Of a DNA stretch of 32,985 nt, positions 9,708-32,471 are shown piece by piece (position 1 is the first letter of the stretch; each line of letters begins with the position of its first letter). Source of the DNA: a virus; IMG/VR virus record IMGVR_UViG_3300043427_003388, positions 1 to 32,985 of that record; one strand, written 5' to 3'. The position numbers were made by a program, and so were the translations under genes. Below the pieces are notes generated by a model. That model ran no database searches. It worked only from the letters and a program-made list of their open reading frames with translations, and was not told where the DNA came from.

Positions 9708-9901
9708 GAGAATCATTATCAAGGACCCATTGAGAATCAATAATGCTTGCAATTGAGAATCAATAAGCCAGGGCGGTGAGAATGAGAATCATTCTCAACA
9801 CCTACGGCAAGGAAAATGAGAATCATTCTCATTAAGCGGCGAGGCCGCCGGAACGATAATCATTCTCACCCTGCGGGGCGGCTTGAATGATAATCATTCT
9901 C
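9708..9901. promoter_or_regulatory. Array of seven Fur-family-box-like sites
   Basis: Seven related sites lie at 9708-9720, 9732-9744, 9755-9767, 9778-9796, 9812-9830, 9849-9867 and 9883-9901. The first three are half or partial boxes (GAGAATCATTATC, then GAGAATCAATAA twice). The next four are near-complete: GAGAATGAGAATCATTCTC at 9778 and the site at 9812 each match 16 of 19 bases of the classical Fur consensus GATAATGATAATCATTATC, and the site at 9883 contains the perfect 7-1-7 palindrome GAATGATAATCATTC. Core positions are 23-37 bp apart. Fur, Zur or PerR cannot be told apart by sequence alone. The array lies between the terminase operon and a divergent small gene. Confidence 0.72.
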
Positions 9902-9962: not shown

Positions 9963-10004
9963 AATTCTTTATAGAATTGATGGTGAGCAATTCTGCTCAC
10001 TTTT
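9963..10004 (+). promoter_or_regulatory. Two hairpins in the leader of the 10021 gene, possible attenuator
   Basis: AATTCT (9963-9968) pairs with AGAATT (9973-9978), and GTGAGC (9983-9988) pairs with GCTCAC (9995-10000), the latter followed by TTTT. The second hairpin ends about 17 bases before the ATG at 10021. It could be a weak intrinsic terminator or a protein-binding palindrome. A TTATAG-like -10 overlaps the first hairpin loop. Confidence 0.35.
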
Positions 10005-10020
10005 CATTGCACTTTAATTT

Positions 10021-10170
10021 ATGCAATCAATTGCCGATATGTTCGCCGCCCGATTAGAAGAACTGCGCCGCATCGATGAAGAATCGAACCGCCGGACGCA
10101 AGAACTACTCAACCGGACGCGAGCACTGATTCAAGAGATCGAGGCAATCGATCTCGAAACTGAATACTGA
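10021..10170 (+). CDS. Small coiled-coil protein of 49 residues
   Basis: The frame runs from ATG 10021 to TGA 10170 and is followed after 3 bases by a strong intrinsic terminator. The product is almost entirely helical and highly charged (RLEELRRIDEESNRRTQELLN, with heptad-spaced L and I), so it probably forms a coiled coil. No family is recognised. It is divergent from the terminase operon and downstream of the Fur-type array, so its promoter must lie within or beside that array. No ribosome site is visible. The dedicated terminator is the best argument that it is a real transcription unit; a small RNA with the same boundaries is the alternative. Confidence 0.55.
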   Translation: MQSIADMFAARLEELRRIDEESNRRTQELLNRTRALIQEIEAIDLETEY

Positions 10171-10173
10171 ACA

Positions 10174-10198
10174 GGGGGGCAATCGGCCCCCCTTTTTT
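10174..10198 (+). terminator. Intrinsic terminator after the 10021 gene
   Basis: GGGGGGC, loop AATCG, GCCCCCC, then TTTTTT. This is a perfect 7-bp G-C stem with a strong T tract on the plus strand. Confidence 0.88.
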
Positions 10199-10255: not shown

Positions 10256-11323
10256 TCATTCGGGCATCAGCTGAATGATCCCGTCGGCCAGGCGGATCAG
10301 TGGCGCGTCCGGCAGGATGAATCCGGCGAGCTCAGGATCGGCGCCGCGGGATCGTTTCGCCCTCAGGATCACGGCCACGCCCGCGGGATCGGCCCACCGG
10401 TGATCGGTGGTATCACCGTCGACGGTCTGCAGGGCGACGGTCTGGCCGCCGTGGCTGATCAGCACACGGGCCGGGATCGGGGCGCCCTTAGGTAGGTCGA
10501 TCGGCACGGCCAGGCGGAACCCGGCGAGGGCGGCGGCCATCGCGTCGGCGGCGGCCGTCGGGCGATCGCCGGCCAGGCTGGCCGTAACATCCCATCCAGC
10601 GTCGCGCTGAGCGATCAGGCCGAGCGGCCCGGCGGTCGGCGCCTTTGAATACTCATAGAGTCGCACCGATCCGTCGGCCGTGGCCGGCTGCAGCAGTTCG
10701 GCCAGAGTCTTGCCCTCGCCGTCTGCGATCAGCAGACCGAACCGGCGCCGGATCGCGATGGCTTCGGGCACGCTCACGGTGAGCCGCCGAACGTGCCACG
10801 GCTGATCATCAGTGCCACGCAGTCGCACGGCCAGGGGCAGACCGTCGGCCTGAGCCTTGGCCCACTGACGGGCGATCGCCCAAAGCATGGCCCGGCCGTA
10901 TAGGGCGGGGTCGGCGATCATGGCCAGAGTCCGGCGGCCACGGGCGGCGGCGACTGCGGGCGACAATCCGCCGTGGCCGGCCCAGGCAAGGCACGCCGAC
11001 GCGCAACCCTCAGTGGCCCACGGGCAGGCATTGAAGACCGCCGCGGCGGCCGTCATTCCCTCGCGATCAGCGAGGGCGGCGAGGGCGGCGAGATGACCGC
11101 GGGGCGCAACGGCCGCCCGGTTCGCGGGATCGATCGCGGCGGCGAGGGCGCGGCCCGGCAATCCGTGGTGAATGACGGCCCGGGCGATCGCGGCGCCCTT
11201 GCCTAGTTTCGGGTTCGAATCGGTCAGCACGTCGGCCAGGGTCAGGCCGAACCGGGAGAGATGGGCGGCCACGTCGGCGGGAAGGGCGACGCGGGCGTTT
11301 GAACGAATGAGGGCGGCGGGCAT
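10256..11323 (-). CDS. GP88-like protein, last gene of the accessory operon
   Basis: The protein has 355 residues. The central part (FNACPWATEGCASACLAWAGHG, then about 15 residues on RGRRTLAMIADPALYGRAML) resembles the conserved core of the phage gene product 88 family, in which two or three cysteines precede a tyrosine-like position and an arginine-rich helix. Cys residues at about 99, 106 and 110 could bind metal, but this is not established. The C-terminal third (about 220-355) has alternating strands. I know of no proven function for this family. The start follows a variant of the leader shared by the accessory genes. Base composition is very G+C rich, with three HIP1 octamers inside. A link to the Cys-rich gene upstream is only contextual. 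Confidence 0.55.
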   Translation of the reverse strand: MPAALIRSNARVALPADVAAHLSRFGLTLADVLTDSNPKLGKGAAIARAVIHHGLPGRALAAAIDPANRAAVAPRGHLAALAALADREGMTAAAAVFNACPWATEGCASACLAWAGHGGLSPAVAAARGRRTLAMIADPALYGRAMLWAIARQWAKAQADGLPLAVRLRGTDDQPWHVRRLTVSVPEAIAIRRRFGLLIADGEGKTLAELLQPATADGSVRLYEYSKAPTAGPLGLIAQRDAGWDVTASLAGDRPTAAADAMAAALAGFRLAVPIDLPKGAPIPARVLISHGGQTVALQTVDGDTTDHRWADPAGVAVILRAKRSRGADPELAGFILPDAPLIRLADGIIQLMPE

Positions 11324-11325
11324 GG

Positions 11326-11339
11326 TGTTAGCTGCGTGG
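11326..11339 (-). promoter_or_regulatory. Variant copy of the accessory-gene leader
   Basis: CCACGCAGCTAACA, ending two bases before the ATG at 11323, is the most diverged of the five leader copies. The block CTAACACC-ATG is intact. Confidence 0.45.
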
Positions 11340-11342
11340 TGA

Positions 11343-11906
11343 TCAGATCAGGCGGAGAATCGACAGCCAAGAATCGGGCGCGTCCGGTTCAACCGTTCGG
11401 CCGTCGGGCGTTTCACAGCAGGAATCCAGCGCCCAGAGGTCGAGCTCGCCGTCGGTGGGCGCCGGCCAGAATCGGCCACGCCACCAGATGCGGCGGGCGC
11501 CGCCGGCCTGATCGATCGGCAGACCGGCGCGGGCGGCGAGCTCGCAGGCGGTCTCGGTGGAATCATCGGCGCCGAATTGATCAGCGCGCCACGGGCAATT
11601 GATCGACGCCACCAGATCGGCCCATTGGCGGGCGAACGGCCAGGCGCGGGCGTCGGCAGGATCGATCAGCGCGAACCGGTGATCCCATTGGCGGGCAATC
11701 TCAGCGGCGCGCCGCTTGCTGCAGCGTAGGGTTCCGGCGCTCAGGCCGGACGCCCTATGGCTGATCACCCATTGGCCGCGGCAGACCGGGAATTCGCGGG
11801 CGGAATCACAGGGCGGGGTCAGGGCGACCCATTGGCCGACCCAATGGGCGGGCGCCATAGCGTCGCCGGTGTTGGTGGCGACGCGGCAGGTATGAACAGT
11901 GGGCAT
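11343..11906 (-). CDS. Unknown cysteine- and tryptophan-rich protein
   Basis: The protein has 187 residues and I recognise no family. It is rich in Trp (about twelve) and Cys (about eight), with a helical stretch LRCSKRRAAEIARQWDHRFALIDPADARAWPFARQW and a C-terminal half (GGARRIWWRGRFWP) of beta character. There is no signal peptide or membrane segment, so it should be cytoplasmic. The ATG at 11906 comes directly after the shared leader CCCATCGCACCTAGCACG, which decides the start. It is the second-to-last gene of the leftward accessory operon, 19 bp before the GP88-like gene. Confidence 0.6.
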   Translation of the reverse strand: MPTVHTCRVATNTGDAMAPAHWVGQWVALTPPCDSAREFPVCRGQWVISHRASGLSAGTLRCSKRRAAEIARQWDHRFALIDPADARAWPFARQWADLVASINCPWRADQFGADDSTETACELAARAGLPIDQAGGARRIWWRGRFWPAPTDGELDLWALDSCCETPDGRTVEPDAPDSWLSILRLI

Positions 11907-11908
11907 CG

Positions 11909-11924
11909 TGCTAGGTGCGATGGG
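11909..11924 (-). promoter_or_regulatory. Shared accessory leader, copy 2
   Basis: CCCATCGCACCTAGCA ends two bases before the ATG at 11906. It is identical over 16 bases to the copy at 12344-12359. Confidence 0.65.
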
Positions 11925-11936
11925 AAGGGCGGGCGA

Positions 11937-12113
11937 TCAGTCGCGGTCACTGATCGCCCAACGGTCAGGCGACGGCGCGGCATGGTGGCCGGCGGCGACG
12001 CGGGCCGTATAAGCGGCGAGAATCGCGGCGAGCTGATCGGCCATGGCCGGATCGGACGCGGCAACCCAACCGCCGGCGACGCGAAGCAAGGGCGGGCGAT
12101 CGGGGCGGATCAC
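11937..12113 (-). CDS. Unknown small protein of 58 residues
   Basis: A GTG start overlaps the TGA of the upstream gene (GTGA), a common sign of translational coupling, so I prefer it to a longer frame that would overlap that gene by 120 bases. The product has one helical stretch, MADQLAAILAAYTARVAAG, and ends PDRWAISDRD. No family is recognised. It is the only gene of the accessory operon without its own leader copy, which agrees with coupled translation. Confidence is moderate because high G+C content keeps several frames open here. Confidence 0.45.
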   Translation of the reverse strand: MIRPDRPPLLRVAGGWVAASDPAMADQLAAILAAYTARVAAGHHAAPSPDRWAISDRD

Positions 12114-12340
12114 GGCCGAGCGAGGGCGGCGCCGATGGCCAGACCGCTCAGCAGCTGCTGAGCCTCGCCGGGCGTCAAGCATTCGCCGAGCGGCTGAGCG
12201 CCGGCGCCGAACCGGCGCATGACGTGCCAACCGGTGGCCGAGCGTTGACAGAAGACTTCGCTAGGGCGGCTGTCGCCGTAAAGGGCGCAGCTGACACGCT
12301 CGGCGGCCTTATGGAGCTGATTGGGCGTGATACGTGCCAC
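12110..12340 (-). CDS. Unknown small protein of 76 residues
   Basis: The GTG at 12340 follows the shared leader with a 3-base gap, which fixes the start. The product reads MARITPNQLHKAAERVSCALYG and later LTPGEAQQLLSGLAIGAAL: two helices around a short beta region (VFCQRSATGWHVMRRF). No family is recognised. The pattern, a small soluble two-helix protein, would fit a DNA-binding or accessory regulator, but nothing proves this. The end overlaps the start of the 58-residue gene. Confidence 0.55.
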   Translation of the reverse strand: MARITPNQLHKAAERVSCALYGDSRPSEVFCQRSATGWHVMRRFGAGAQPLGECLTPGEAQQLLSGLAIGAALARP

Positions 12341-12343
12341 GGA

Positions 12344-12359
12344 TGCTAGGTGCGATGGG
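12344..12359 (-). promoter_or_regulatory. Shared accessory leader, copy 3
   Basis: CCCATCGCACCTAGCA ends three bases before the GTG at 12340. Confidence 0.65.
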
Positions 12360-12371
12360 ATGGGGCGGCGA

Positions 12372-12581
12372 TCAGCGGCGGCGGGCGGCGGGCGTGGCCG
12401 CGTCGGCGATCGCTGCAGCAGTCAGGGCGGCGGCGGCGGCGGCCATGCCGCCAAACCATACGAAACCGGCCACGGATTGGGTGCGGTTACCGTCGACCGG
12501 GGCCAGAGCGGCGGCGGCGACTGCGCAAGCGGCCGTGGTTGATGCCATGGCGCCGATCAGAAATGCGTGCGGGTTCTTCAT
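12372..12581 (-). CDS. Small protein with two predicted membrane segments
   Basis: The protein has 69 residues. Hydrophobic segments at about 6-27 (AFLIGAMASTTAACAVAAAALA) and 39-61 (GFVWFGGMAAAAAALTAAAIA) are separated by a short polar loop, and it ends in RRR. This would form a hairpin in the inner membrane. The size and shape recall phage holins, but the alanine-rich composition is poor evidence and no endolysin gene is nearby. The start directly follows the shared leader. It is the second gene of the accessory operon. Confidence 0.55.
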   Translation of the reverse strand: MKNPHAFLIGAMASTTAACAVAAAALAPVDGNRTQSVAGFVWFGGMAAAAAALTAAAIADAATPAARRR

Positions 12582-12583
12582 GG

Positions 12584-12599
12584 TGTTAGGTGCGATGGG
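12584..12599 (-). promoter_or_regulatory. Shared accessory leader, copy 4
   Basis: CCCATCGCACCTAACA ends two bases before the ATG at 12581 and is identical to the copy at 13015-13030. Confidence 0.65.
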
Positions 12600-12677
12600 G
12601 ACGACCGTTCGGCCGTTGACGGAATTCTGCCGACGCGCCCGACCCGATCAATGGGCGGGCGGGCGGTTCGGCGATTG

Positions 12678-13010
12678 TCACACGGCGAGGGCGGCGATCA
12701 GCTCGGCCCGGCGGCCGTAGGTATAAAGGCGGCGCGGCAGACCGGCGACGCGGGCGGCCGTGCGCAGTTCGACCACGGTCAGGCGATCGACGGGCGCGGG
12801 CCGGTCGACCCGATCGGCGAGGGCACGTAATCCGGCGGCGGCGATCGGGGCCAGCCGAACGGCGAGGGCGTGGCACACGGCGGCCACGGTCAGGGCGACC
12901 ATAAGGGCGCGGGCGGCGGCCGCTTGCCAATCGATCGCGCTAAGGGCGGCGATCGCATCATCAATGGGCGGAAACGCGGGCGCGGGCGCCCGGCTGACTG
13001 TAAGGGTCAT
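12678..13010 (-). CDS. Membrane-anchored SAP-like domain protein
   Basis: The protein has 110 residues. A hydrophobic segment at about 33-60 (ARALMVALTVAAVCHALAVRLAPIAAAGL) could span the membrane. The C-terminal 35 residues (LTVVELRTAARVAGLPRRLYTYGRRAELIAAL) have the spacing of a SAP or Rho N-terminal-like helix-extension-helix domain, which binds DNA in many proteins. A membrane-tethered DNA-binding protein is therefore plausible. This is the first gene of the accessory operon and lies downstream of the operator region 13251-13496. The ATG is fixed by the shared leader, here with a 4-base gap. Confidence 0.6.
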   Translation of the reverse strand: MTLTVSRAPAPAFPPIDDAIAALSAIDWQAAAARALMVALTVAAVCHALAVRLAPIAAAGLRALADRVDRPAPVDRLTVVELRTAARVAGLPRRLYTYGRRAELIAALAV

Positions 13011-13014
13011 TTGG

Positions 13015-13030
13015 TGTTAGGTGCGATGGG
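13015..13030 (-). promoter_or_regulatory. Shared accessory leader, copy 5
   Basis: CCCATCGCACCTAACA ends four bases before the ATG at 13010. On its upstream side it abuts the 17-bp palindrome at 13031-13047. Confidence 0.65.
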
Positions 13031-13047
13031 GAACGCGATTCGCGTTC
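13031..13047. repeat. Perfect 17-bp palindrome upstream of the accessory operon
   Basis: GAACGCGATTCGCGTTC has 8-bp arms around one central T. There is no T tract, so it is more likely an operator than a terminator. Confidence 0.55.
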
Positions 13048-13161: not shown

Positions 13162-13250
13162 AACGGGTCGGCCTGGCCGCCCCATATATAAGGTCGCCGC
13201 CGATCGGAAACGCGGCGCGTCGGATGCAGGAATTCTGCCGGCGTGGCCGT

Positions 13251-13269
13251 GAGAATGATTATCATTCCT
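13251..13269. promoter_or_regulatory. Fur-family-box-like site
   Basis: GAGAATGATTATCATTCCT contains the perfect 7-1-7 palindrome GAATGATTATCATTC (13253-13267). It matches about 15 of 19 bases of the Fur consensus and lies 14 bp from the LexA-type array. Confidence 0.65.
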
Positions 13270-13282
13270 GGTCGAGTTTAAT

Positions 13283-13416
13283 AGTACAAATGTACTAGCG
13301 TACAAATGTACTGAAATACCGATAGTACAAATGTACTAGCGTACAAATGTACTCATTAACTAGTACAAATGTACTGAAATACCGATAGTACAAATGTACT
13401 AGCGAACGGATGTACC
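13283..13416. promoter_or_regulatory. Array of LexA-box-like palindromes (AGTACAAATGTACT)
   Basis: Copies start at 13283, 13299, 13324, 13340, 13362 and 13387, with a degenerate seventh (CGAACGGATGTACC) at 13403. Four are AGTACAAATGTACT and match the cyanobacterial LexA box RGTACNNNDGTWCB at every position; two begin with C in place of A. Spacings are 16, 25, 16, 22, 25 and 16 bp, so pairs are repeated as larger units with linkers such as GAAATACCGAT. The core TACAAATGTA also fits the CopY/BlaI operator TACANNTGTA, but no such regulator gene is visible. The array is upstream of the accessory operon. Confidence 0.75.
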
Positions 13417-13477: not shown

Positions 13478-13496
13478 GAGAACGATTATCATTCTC
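13478..13496. promoter_or_regulatory. Fur-family-box-like site
   Basis: GAGAACGATTATCATTCTC matches 16 of 19 bases of GATAATGATTATCATTATC. A half site, GAGAATGAG, precedes it at 13456. Confidence 0.65.
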
Positions 13497-13524
13497 GGCC
13501 AAAACACAAAAACAGGAGGGTGTC

Positions 13525-13610
13525 CACAAGCCCCTATTAAACCGACCCCCAGCAAGTCCCTAATTTTTTCAATCCCAGGACGGTCAGCACAAGCCCCTAT
13601 TAAACCGACC
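13525..13610. repeat. Two copies of a 23-bp direct repeat
   Basis: CACAAGCCCCTATTAAACCG plus ACC occurs at 13525-13547 and 13588-13610. Each copy is followed, after eight non-matching bases, by GTCCCTA, so the conserved unit is bipartite (23 + 8 variable + 7). The period is 63 bp. No gene is credible here. Read on the minus strand, the unit could contain a promoter-like or protein-binding element upstream of the accessory operon. Confidence 0.65.
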
Positions 13611-13630
13611 GCTCGCGGGTCCCTAGCCAC

Positions 13631-16095: not shown

Positions 16096-18735
16096 TCAAG
16101 TCTTATTGATCTCAAATGGGACCAGCGTTGCGCGTTGCATGCCGACGCCGGTGAAATACACCGGATCCTTGGTCACCTCCGCCCCGGTGAGCCGCTTGAG
16201 CGATGAGCGGTGGGCGTTGTTGGCCCACTGGGTATCGCGGAAGATCGTGGCCAGCTGCCGGTTGTTGTGGGCGACAGCAACGAAGTGCATCTGGCAGGGC
16301 TGCTCACCGCCTGGCATCAGGTCGAGACCCTTGCGATACACCTTGAGACCCCATCGGCCGAGGATCTTGGCCAGCTCCGGCGCCGTCGTGGCCTGCAGCG
16401 GTGCTCCAGTGGCCACGCACAGCACCAGCTCGCCGAGCTGCGCCTTCTGGCCCATGGAGAAGTCCACGAGGTGCTGGAGGATCGTGTCACGGCACTTGAC
16501 CTCATCAGCGTCGCTCTCGTCGCTGTCGCGGGTCTCCCAGTCCATCTGGTCGATCCACTGCTTGGCCATGTCGAGCGACAGCTCGCCGCCACCGCCGGGC
16601 TCGAGGCTCCATGCACCGGCTAGGAGCGTGCCGTGCTGATCGCCAAAGCGCTGCCCGAAACGATGGGCAAGTGCCCGGCCGAGCACCTTGGCATTGGCCT
16701 TGATGGTTGGGATCTGCTGCAACGTGCGAGCGATCAATCGCCGACCGTTTTCAACAGTGGCTAAGTCGATGATTTCGGCTTCAAAGCGCGTCCAGTCGTC
16801 CTTGGGAACGGGATCCTTGCGCAGCGGCAAAACGCAAAATCGATCGAGGTCAGCTTTCTGAAACAGCGCAACTGTGATCGAGGACACGCAGAACATCGAG
16901 CGAATTTCAAATGAATTTGCGCCGCCAGATGTGGTGCCTTTGATGATGCGACCGCCCTCCGATGATGCGATGCGAGCGAGTGATAGGACGTTTTGGACGA
17001 TGCCTTTGTCGCGTGCTTCGTTCTGCTCGAATTCATCGAAGACGACAGGCACAGCATCGGACTTGAGGGTGCCGCGCAGGCCGGCCTCGGTCGTTCCACC
17101 GGTGGCTGCTTGGTAGATGCCACCGAGCAGTGGCTTCATGAAAGACTTCAGGATGGTGGTCTTGCCGGTGCCAGCGCCACCAGTAACCCAGATGTGCGGC
17201 CGCCAATCGAGGGCGCCGCAGACGGGTGCGAGAACGATCCAGCCGAGGAGCATGTTGGCGCTGGCGGGCGTTTCCCAGCGGAAGCGCTCAGCGATGCAGC
17301 GGAGCTTAAAAGCGGCGTCGTCGGGCAGGGCGTCAGGGGCAGGGCCGAGCAGCTCCTTGGCATTTTCGTAGAAGTAGTAGCTCTCGAAATCAGACGGCAG
17401 CTTGGTGATCGGGTAGGAGCGACCGTCGACGATGAGGCGATTGCCGAGGTGGAAGATCACGCGATCGGCGTCGGTCCATGCGCCGCGGCCACGCACGCGA
17501 TCTGGGTTGTAGACGCCTTGCGCGATGCAGGCGCCCATGATGGCGTTCTGGGCTGAGTCCCAGTCGATGCGGTTGCCCTGCTCGTTGCTGAAACCTTGTG
17601 CCCACCACTCAAGGGGCGCGAGCATGAGGAAGTGCGACTTGTTGTGTTGAGCAGCAGTGAGCTCAACGACTTGGCCACCGGCCTGAGGCAAGTAGTAGAA
17701 AGTGCCGTGGTCGAAGCCAAGCGGCCTGAATGGCATGCGATCGACTGGGCCAAGGTCGCGAGCACTGTCGCTGAGATCCGGCTGCGTGACAGGGTTTTCG
17801 GCCGACTCATCAGCAACTTCTGCAGGCCGCTCCATCGGCCGGTGATTGGCCTTGACGTAAGCAAGCGCTTCGGCTGGCGACCAGTCGGCATCGGCGATGT
17901 CCCACTTCTCGGGTGCATCGGGCGGTGCGTCGATGGTGAGCAGCTTGGCGGGCTCACGGATGAGGCCAGCGATCTTGGCCATGGCGTCGCGGCCTTGATC
18001 GTCGTTGTCAGGCCAAAGGAGGATGCTGCGACCGGCGAGGGGCGACCAGTCGACCTTGGCGACGGATTGAGCGCCGTTGGGCCAGGCGACAGCTACAAGC
18101 TGCGGGAACAGCTCCTGGGCACGGTCGGCAGCCTTCTCGCCTTCGCAGACGATGACCTGAGCGGTGGGCCGAGCTGCTAGGGCGGCGAGGTTGTAGAGCG
18201 GGCGAGGCGTGGGCCAAGAGGTGCCTGAAGCACCCTGCCAGCCGGTGCCGTCGACCCAGGTGCGATGGCGAAAGATCTTGTCGCCGTTGGGGCGGGTGAT
18301 GCGCTGAATCCAGAACAGCTGCTCGCCGGCGGCATCGGTGTAGCACCACTGATGAGAGGCACCATCGAGGGCCGGGGGTGCGGCGTCGATGGGTGGCTTG
18401 ATGGGCGCAGGTGTTGCTGGCTTGGATGCGGAGGGGCGGGGCACGCCGAGATAGTCCTCAACAGCGCGAGCAGCTTCTTTGAATTCCCAGCCCTTGACGC
18501 GCATGAGGAGCGACATGCCGTTGCCGCCACCGCCCATGCCGTCTTTGCCTCCGCAGTGGGAGCAGAACCATGTGCCGTTGCCGTCCTGGTCGTCGAAGCG
18601 AAAGCGGTCTTCGCCGTCTCTGCAGGAAGGGCAGGGCTTGTGCTTGTTGTCGAGATAGGAGACTGGGACGCCACCGACTGAGGAGAGGATTTCAACCCAG
18701 CGGCCTTGGGCGAGATCAACGACGCTGGTTTTCAT
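16096..18735 (-). CDS. Phage primase-helicase
   Basis: The protein has 879 residues. A zinc-binding primase domain is at the N-terminus with Cys35, Cys38, Cys58 and Cys61 (KPCPSC, WFCSHCGG), followed by a Toprim-like region at about 185-260 (VIVCEGEKAADRA, ILLWPDNDDQGRDAM). The C-terminal half is an ATPase/helicase, with Walker A GGAGTGKTT at about 520 and a Walker B-like VVFDEFEQNEA near 560. Such fusions lay primers and unwind DNA at the phage fork, often loading at an adjacent origin. The ACCGTATGA array begins directly after its stop codon. Its start overlaps the small RHH-like gene by 20 bases. Confidence 0.85.
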   Translation of the reverse strand: MKTSVVDLAQGRWVEILSSVGGVPVSYLDNKHKPCPSCRDGEDRFRFDDQDGNGTWFCSHCGGKDGMGGGGNGMSLLMRVKGWEFKEAARAVEDYLGVPRPSASKPATPAPIKPPIDAAPPALDGASHQWCYTDAAGEQLFWIQRITRPNGDKIFRHRTWVDGTGWQGASGTSWPTPRPLYNLAALAARPTAQVIVCEGEKAADRAQELFPQLVAVAWPNGAQSVAKVDWSPLAGRSILLWPDNDDQGRDAMAKIAGLIREPAKLLTIDAPPDAPEKWDIADADWSPAEALAYVKANHRPMERPAEVADESAENPVTQPDLSDSARDLGPVDRMPFRPLGFDHGTFYYLPQAGGQVVELTAAQHNKSHFLMLAPLEWWAQGFSNEQGNRIDWDSAQNAIMGACIAQGVYNPDRVRGRGAWTDADRVIFHLGNRLIVDGRSYPITKLPSDFESYYFYENAKELLGPAPDALPDDAAFKLRCIAERFRWETPASANMLLGWIVLAPVCGALDWRPHIWVTGGAGTGKTTILKSFMKPLLGGIYQAATGGTTEAGLRGTLKSDAVPVVFDEFEQNEARDKGIVQNVLSLARIASSEGGRIIKGTTSGGANSFEIRSMFCVSSITVALFQKADLDRFCVLPLRKDPVPKDDWTRFEAEIIDLATVENGRRLIARTLQQIPTIKANAKVLGRALAHRFGQRFGDQHGTLLAGAWSLEPGGGGELSLDMAKQWIDQMDWETRDSDESDADEVKCRDTILQHLVDFSMGQKAQLGELVLCVATGAPLQATTAPELAKILGRWGLKVYRKGLDLMPGGEQPCQMHFVAVAHNNRQLATIFRDTQWANNAHRSSLKRLTGAEVTKDPVYFTGVGMQRATLVPFEINKT

Positions 18736-32384: not shown

Positions 32385-32400
32385 TGCGGGTTTGGATTGG

Positions 32401-32471
32401 TAGGCCCATTCAGAATTGAACTGAAATCCGTCGATTAAAAGTCGACTGCTCTACCGTTGAGCTATGGGCCC
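32401..32471 (-). tRNA. tRNA-Lys(TTT)
   Basis: A full cloverleaf folds on the minus strand: acceptor GGGCCCA/TGGGCCT (first pair G-U), D arm GCTC/GAGC with a 7-base loop, anticodon stem GTCGA/TCGAC with loop CTTTTAA (anticodon TTT), a 4-base variable loop and T arm TTCAG/CTGAA with loop TTCAATT. Discriminator A; CCA not encoded. The AT-rich T stem and short D and variable loops are less like a typical host tRNA-Lys, suggesting a phage-encoded copy or an attachment-site copy. Confidence 0.88.

Follow-up and report, generated by a model that had tools for sequence, protein, structure and literature searches.

A repeated leader that lacks a Shine-Dalgarno sequence precedes the starts of an accessory gene cassette in a phage genome

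The accessory cassette and its leader copies

We analysed a 33-kb virus record (IMGVR_UViG_3300043427_003388; "the window" is this whole stretch of 32,985 nucleotides). Genes for lambda-type terminase, portal and capsid proteins lie on its minus strand, and it also has helicase, HNH and primase genes. Its accessory operon is a compact run of the genes A, B, C, C', D and E (Table 1). Gene C', missing from the original prediction, is the sixth cassette gene and begins without a leader at a GTGA/ATGA overlap. Weak similarity to a SAP domain, below the Pfam cut-off (E 0.009-0.02), is seen at the C-terminus of the gene A product (12678-12770), behind a variable N-terminal part. The -10-like box upstream of gene A is a possible candidate for the cassette promoter.

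Table 1. Positions of the cassette genes, leader copies and neighbouring features in the window.
Feature	Position	Strand	Remarks
-10-like box TTATATAT	13184..13191	-	equivalent place: TTATATAT in G001, TTATGTAT in G002
Array of AGTACAAATGTACT palindromes	13283..13400	.	upstream of cassette; cyanobacterial LexA-box-like
Hairpin GAACGCGAATCGCGTTC	13031..13047	-	directly 5' of leader A
Leader copy A, CCCATCGCACCTAACA	13015..13030	-	4 nt before start 13010
Gene A	12678..13010	-	110 aa
Hairpin ACGGCCGAACGGTCGT	12601..12616	-	directly 5' of leader B
Leader copy B, CCCATCGCACCTAACA	12584..12599	-	2 nt before start 12581
Gene B	12372..12581	-	69 aa, small hydrophobic protein
Leader copy C, CCCATCGCACCTAGCA	12344..12359	-	3 nt before GTG start 12340
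Gene C	12110..12340	-	76 aa
Gene C'	11937..12113	-	58 aa; GTG start overlaps stop of C; no leader
12-bp hairpin	11930..11960	-	directly 5' of leader D, overlaps end of previous ORF
Leader copy D, CCCATCGCACCTAGCA	11909..11924	-	2 nt before start 11906
Gene D	11343..11906	-	187 aa; conserved, no assigned function
Diverged leader copy E, CACCACGCAGCTAACA	11326..11341	-	2 nt before start 11323
Gene E	10256..11323	-	355 aa, GP88-like (PF17338)
Hairpin GGTGAGCAATTCTGCTCACT	9982..10001	+	5' of the leader of the 49-aa gene
Related leader TTTCATTGCACTTTAATTT	10002..10020	+	before the 49-aa gene; CTTTCTCATCGCACCTTGAAAC in G001
49-aa ORF	10021..10170	+	convergent; followed by intrinsic terminator (10173-10193)

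The consensus leader, CCCATCGCACCTARCA, has four exact copies in the window, all on the minus strand and all 2-4 nt before the starts of A, B, C and D, as originally predicted. The diverged copy foreseen before E is also present; it reads CACCACGCAGCTAACACC in the window and CACCCCGCACCTAACACC in both near relatives, where it is closer to the consensus. Searching the window with the 16-mer at up to three mismatches gave no match beyond the four exact copies (mean of 0.63 matches in shuffled controls). For ORFs of 60 aa or longer, a random position falls within the window of 1-5 nt ahead of a start codon with probability 0.066, so that four of four copies would lie at starts by chance with a probability of about 2e-5. 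The 10-nt core CATCGCACCT occurs once within the primase ORF (18258-18267), where the full 16-mer is lacking. The motif columns hold 1.68 bits and the preceding 30 nt hold 0.44 bits.

An element related to the leader, TCATTGCACTT, was overlooked in the original prediction and precedes the plus-strand 49-aa gene. There the order of hairpin, leader and start is the same as in the cassette, downstream of a TATAAT/TATACT-like box, and the G001 counterpart has CTCATCGCACCTTGAAACATG downstream of a TATACT box. Among the loci compared, the 49-aa gene with its promoter-like site, hairpin and terminator was found only in the three closest phages.

Further repeats flank the cassette. The AGTACAAATGTACT palindromes match the cyanobacterial LexA-box pattern AGWA-N6-TWCT (PMC13416735). 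Many relatives have similar arrays upstream of the cassette; G001 has none, and Fur-like palindromes are expanded there. Fur-box-like palindromes (GAATGATAATCATTC) lie on both sides of the cassette (9780-9899, 13253-13267 and 13480-13494), with 13 strand matches where 0.15 were expected, which is surprising for a phage. Two 50-nt direct repeats beginning with CACAAGCCCCTATTAAACCGACC occupy 13513-13625 and are possibly an origin or iteron; repeats of a similar kind (CGGTTTAATAGGGG/CGGTTTTTAAGGG) are found at the equivalent place in relatives.

Leaders in near and distant relatives

The closest contigs are 047095_000877 (G001) and 042987_002196 (G002), in which D and E are 90-94% identical to those of the window. 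Seeking the 16-mer in related genomes, as had been suggested, we found that both carry the leader at each of the five equivalent starts. Across the full 56-kb records of these phages, the only addition to the five copies is a variant that precedes the 49-aa gene of G001. The genes behind the leader are less constant: slot B encodes three different, unrelated proteins in the three near phages and slot C an unrelated protein in G001, with the leader retained in each case. In a fourth phage, 044609_000868, the leaders of C, D and E are of the ATCGCAC/ATTGCAC type, and leaders of the CTTTATCTGTTACCTGCC and CCCGTTACCTGTTGCCTGCC types stand at other starts.

Some ten phages at greater distance, also carrying this cassette, have another leader sequence, which is common within each genome. 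The leader repeated before cassette starts is CCTTTATCCTTTCCTGCC in L231, AACCTTTACCACTTACCTGCC in L234, CCCATCGCATCCATTCC in L230, ACCCCTTACCCCCTATTTCAAA in L257 and CCTTTCCTTTCCTGAAACC in L094, and looser shared-leader sets occur in L232, L246, L254 and L278. CCCATCGCACCTARCACC represents the leader of the window's own group, and CCTTTATCCTTTCCTGCC that of another. Leader matches in these distant genomes exceed random-position controls. Many relatives have no shared leader pair, and two (G004 and G014) show only looser pyrimidine-rich leaders. Leader identity is 0.82 within a genome and 0.55 when one slot is compared across more distant genomes, a contrast that is an upper estimate because the distant leaders were partly picked by similarity. 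Orthologues of B and E bear the leader of their own genome. Since the same cassette in distant phages uses another leader shared within each genome, the leader follows the genome and not the gene. The replacement leaders also lack CACCT, and the likeness of CACCT to the 16S tail that had been pointed out is thus probably a coincidence.

The concern that the motif might also occur at random positions does not hold in phages, where it is tied to starts. Its 73 matches in bacterial genomes are single copies unlinked to starts; a general bacterial motif was therefore rejected, and the leader is private to phages rather than a general host signal. A relaxed motif pattern run across viral contigs returned mostly unrelated chance matches.

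Start context, hairpins and probable host

The leaders are rich in pyrimidines (48% C, 26% T, 18% A and 9% G in 39 leaders). None of the 39 has a Shine-Dalgarno (SD) sequence, and 29 have CC at -2/-1, mostly as CC-ATG. Duplexes with the 16S tail reach only -2.0 to -4.2 kcal/mol, compared with -9 to -12 at the phage's own SD-bearing genes (all computed with the general 16S tail), in agreement with the earlier statement that the leader is not an SD sequence. Real SD pairing is found at the terminase, portal, helicase and further genes. A 66% GC Cyanobium-type cyanobacterial genome has SD sequences in only 13% of its intergenic ATG genes, with C the dominant base at -1/-2 (54-56%). Cyanobacterial genes without SD are known to carry C immediately ahead of the start codon and to have a relaxed structure (PMC5397173). 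The leaders are unpaired at 0.54-0.83, against about 0.5 in shuffled sequences, a modest excess only.

Hairpins lie 5' of the leaders of A, B, D and the 49-aa gene, finishing about 17-23 nt before the start; C and E have weak hairpins or none. Hairpins are not rare in this GC-rich genome. The helix at D has a z-score of about -4.3 and two compensatory pair changes in G001, in a comparison of three sequences only. At B the arms are identical in G001, G002 and L230 and keep five of six pairs in L231; we saw no covariation in this helix, the arms being nearly constant in five phages, while a sixth (L245) pairs in another register. We also considered intrinsic terminators and rejected them, as no T-run follows the cassette hairpins.

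The host is probably a picocyanobacterium. This is suggested by the best cultured match of the terminase (Synechococcus phage S-LBS1, 45%, with Roseobacter and Serratia phages nearly equal in score) together with the LexA-like boxes and the CC-ATG context. A GP88 profile found no match in 390 cyanobacterial genomes, and a portal search gave only 30-35% matches, in three of 251 genomes of one family. A tRNA-Lys (TTT) gene at 32398-32471 partially matches many cyanobacterial tRNAs and is not diagnostic for the host.

Possible roles of the leader

We give slightly better than an even chance to the reading that this 16-18 nt leader is a phage-specific, SD-independent element of translation initiation or translation control. 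The original prediction of a shared translational or transcriptional control element is partly supported: such an element fits the leader's restriction to starts, the unrelated genes behind it and its retention in relatives; as to level, translation is favoured over transcription because the leader is locked to starts, missing at the coupled start of C', mostly unpaired and in a host-like CC-ATG context, and the function itself we infer. The leader is repeated before each independently initiated cistron of the operon, with a weaker version ahead of the 49-aa gene. As part of the mRNA it would form a G-poor, C/U-rich and mostly unpaired tract at the position of ribosome binding, often 3' of a hairpin and ending in CC-AUG, and such an SD-free leader would suit a host that rarely uses SD pairing. 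Ribosomes might load on the single-stranded tract, with protein S1 or a shared RNA-binding factor perhaps taking part; the C/U-rich composition fits an S1-dependent leader, with unpairedness modestly above shuffles. As a single genome-specific version stands before all cassette genes, these could be switched or balanced jointly, and genes newly inserted behind the leader could be expressed at once. Concerted evolution or a shared factor may keep the copies alike. Being start-locked, oriented, independent of the gene, specific to the genome and missing where coupling is possible, the leader is best explained as an element acting at the level of translation, with a common reader or common evolutionary upkeep. 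Several points run counter to this: the near-perfect identity within a genome is more than a generic unstructured leader needs, copy numbers are small, the excess of unpairedness is modest, hairpins fail to appear at C and E and are not unusual in this genome, and a picocyanobacterial host is only probable. A more specific version, which we regard as unlikely, is a private translation code in which a phage-encoded or phage-modified RNA-binding factor recognises the leader of its genome and selectively promotes or prevents translation of the operon, leader and factor co-evolving as operator and repressor do, on mRNA.

The dependence of the sequence on the phage group would equally suit a repressor and its operator, and a DNA-level role, with a phage repressor or polymerase acting at each copy on the transcription of single genes as at cluster A stoperators or promoter-bearing ESAS (extended sites of cluster K phages, below), could also draw on the single orientation of the copies, the LexA-like and Fur-like operator-type arrays flanking the cassette and the putative SigA-type promoters in the ESAS of Adephagia (PMC11373665). 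We think it improbable: the copies are fixed 2-5 nt before starts and occur nowhere else, no copy has a -35/-10 pair, the genes are closely packed behind a single conserved -10-like box upstream of A, and copy E sits in a 19-nt gap. In slots B and C unrelated genes are exchanged precisely behind the leader, which raises the doubtful prospect that the repeats are mainly recombination boundaries for gene swaps, kept alike by gene conversion, with no regulatory role beyond ordinary start context. That the leader tracks the genome, and that copies C and D are 87% alike over 38 nt, would accord with this; conservation nevertheless ends at the start codon, and in all relatives with shared leaders the sequence remains poor in G, with position and composition unchanged. 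Moreover, among the three near phages the D start keeps TAGCAC and the E start TAACACC, so the copies are not simply homogenised.

It is quite improbable that the leaders are just an ordinary host-type non-SD context made alike by recent duplication. Their composition and CC-ATG match the Cyanobium-like genome, but an exact 16-mer stands before unrelated genes and is conserved in relatives, and the phage's other genes lack it, several having SD instead. A site over the initiation region is typical of small RNA control, and the leaders are so placed; a common pairing target of a host or phage small RNA is nonetheless very unlikely, as neither the full 16-mer nor its complement is found in the window outside the leader sites, no candidate small RNA was identified, and the leader sequence differs wholly between related phages.

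The nearest precedent is the Start-Associated Sequences (SAS) of cluster K mycobacteriophages, of which the leader is not a member. Both are short asymmetric repeats in one orientation, a few nucleotides before the starts of unrelated non-structural genes (typically 3-7 nt for SAS; 2-4 nt for the four exact copies here, with unrelated genes in slots B and C). Part of the SAS are also preceded by an inverted repeat, with a consensus that varies between subclusters, to which the hairpins 5' of some leader copies may correspond. For SAS, as for the leader, a role in translation is proposed and unproven. Unlike the SAS consensus GGGATAGGAGCCC, which contains AGGAG, CCCATCGCACCTARCA lacks an SD core and is nearly free of G, and it does not fall within the two mismatches of GGGATAGGAGCCC that define SAS. 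SAS number 11-19 copies per genome versus 5-6 here (five and one variant in the 56-kb G001/G002 records), and are constant across cluster K, whereas the leader changes completely between related phages. The ESAS of cluster K, a 17-bp imperfect inverted repeat just upstream of about half of the sites, has arms unsuited to RNA pairing; the present hairpins differ from it in sequence, have arms of 6-12 bp and vary among themselves, and one covaries.

Two other systems share single features. Cluster A stoperators, contrasted with SAS in PMC3203893, are likewise repeated asymmetric sites of the 13-bp class, but they act in transcription and are not linked to start codons. The C-rich non-SD starts of cyanobacteria (PMC5397173) also lack SD, have C before the start and little structure; they are a composition bias over many genes, while here a fixed 16-mer is common to one operon.

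Start-associated repeats are already known from actinobacterial phages, where their role is unsolved. An SD-free system that varies between related phages and is yet shared within each genome provides a natural experiment for separating roles in translation, transcription and recombination, and it may be a source of compact, tunable SD-independent translation leaders for cyanobacteria.
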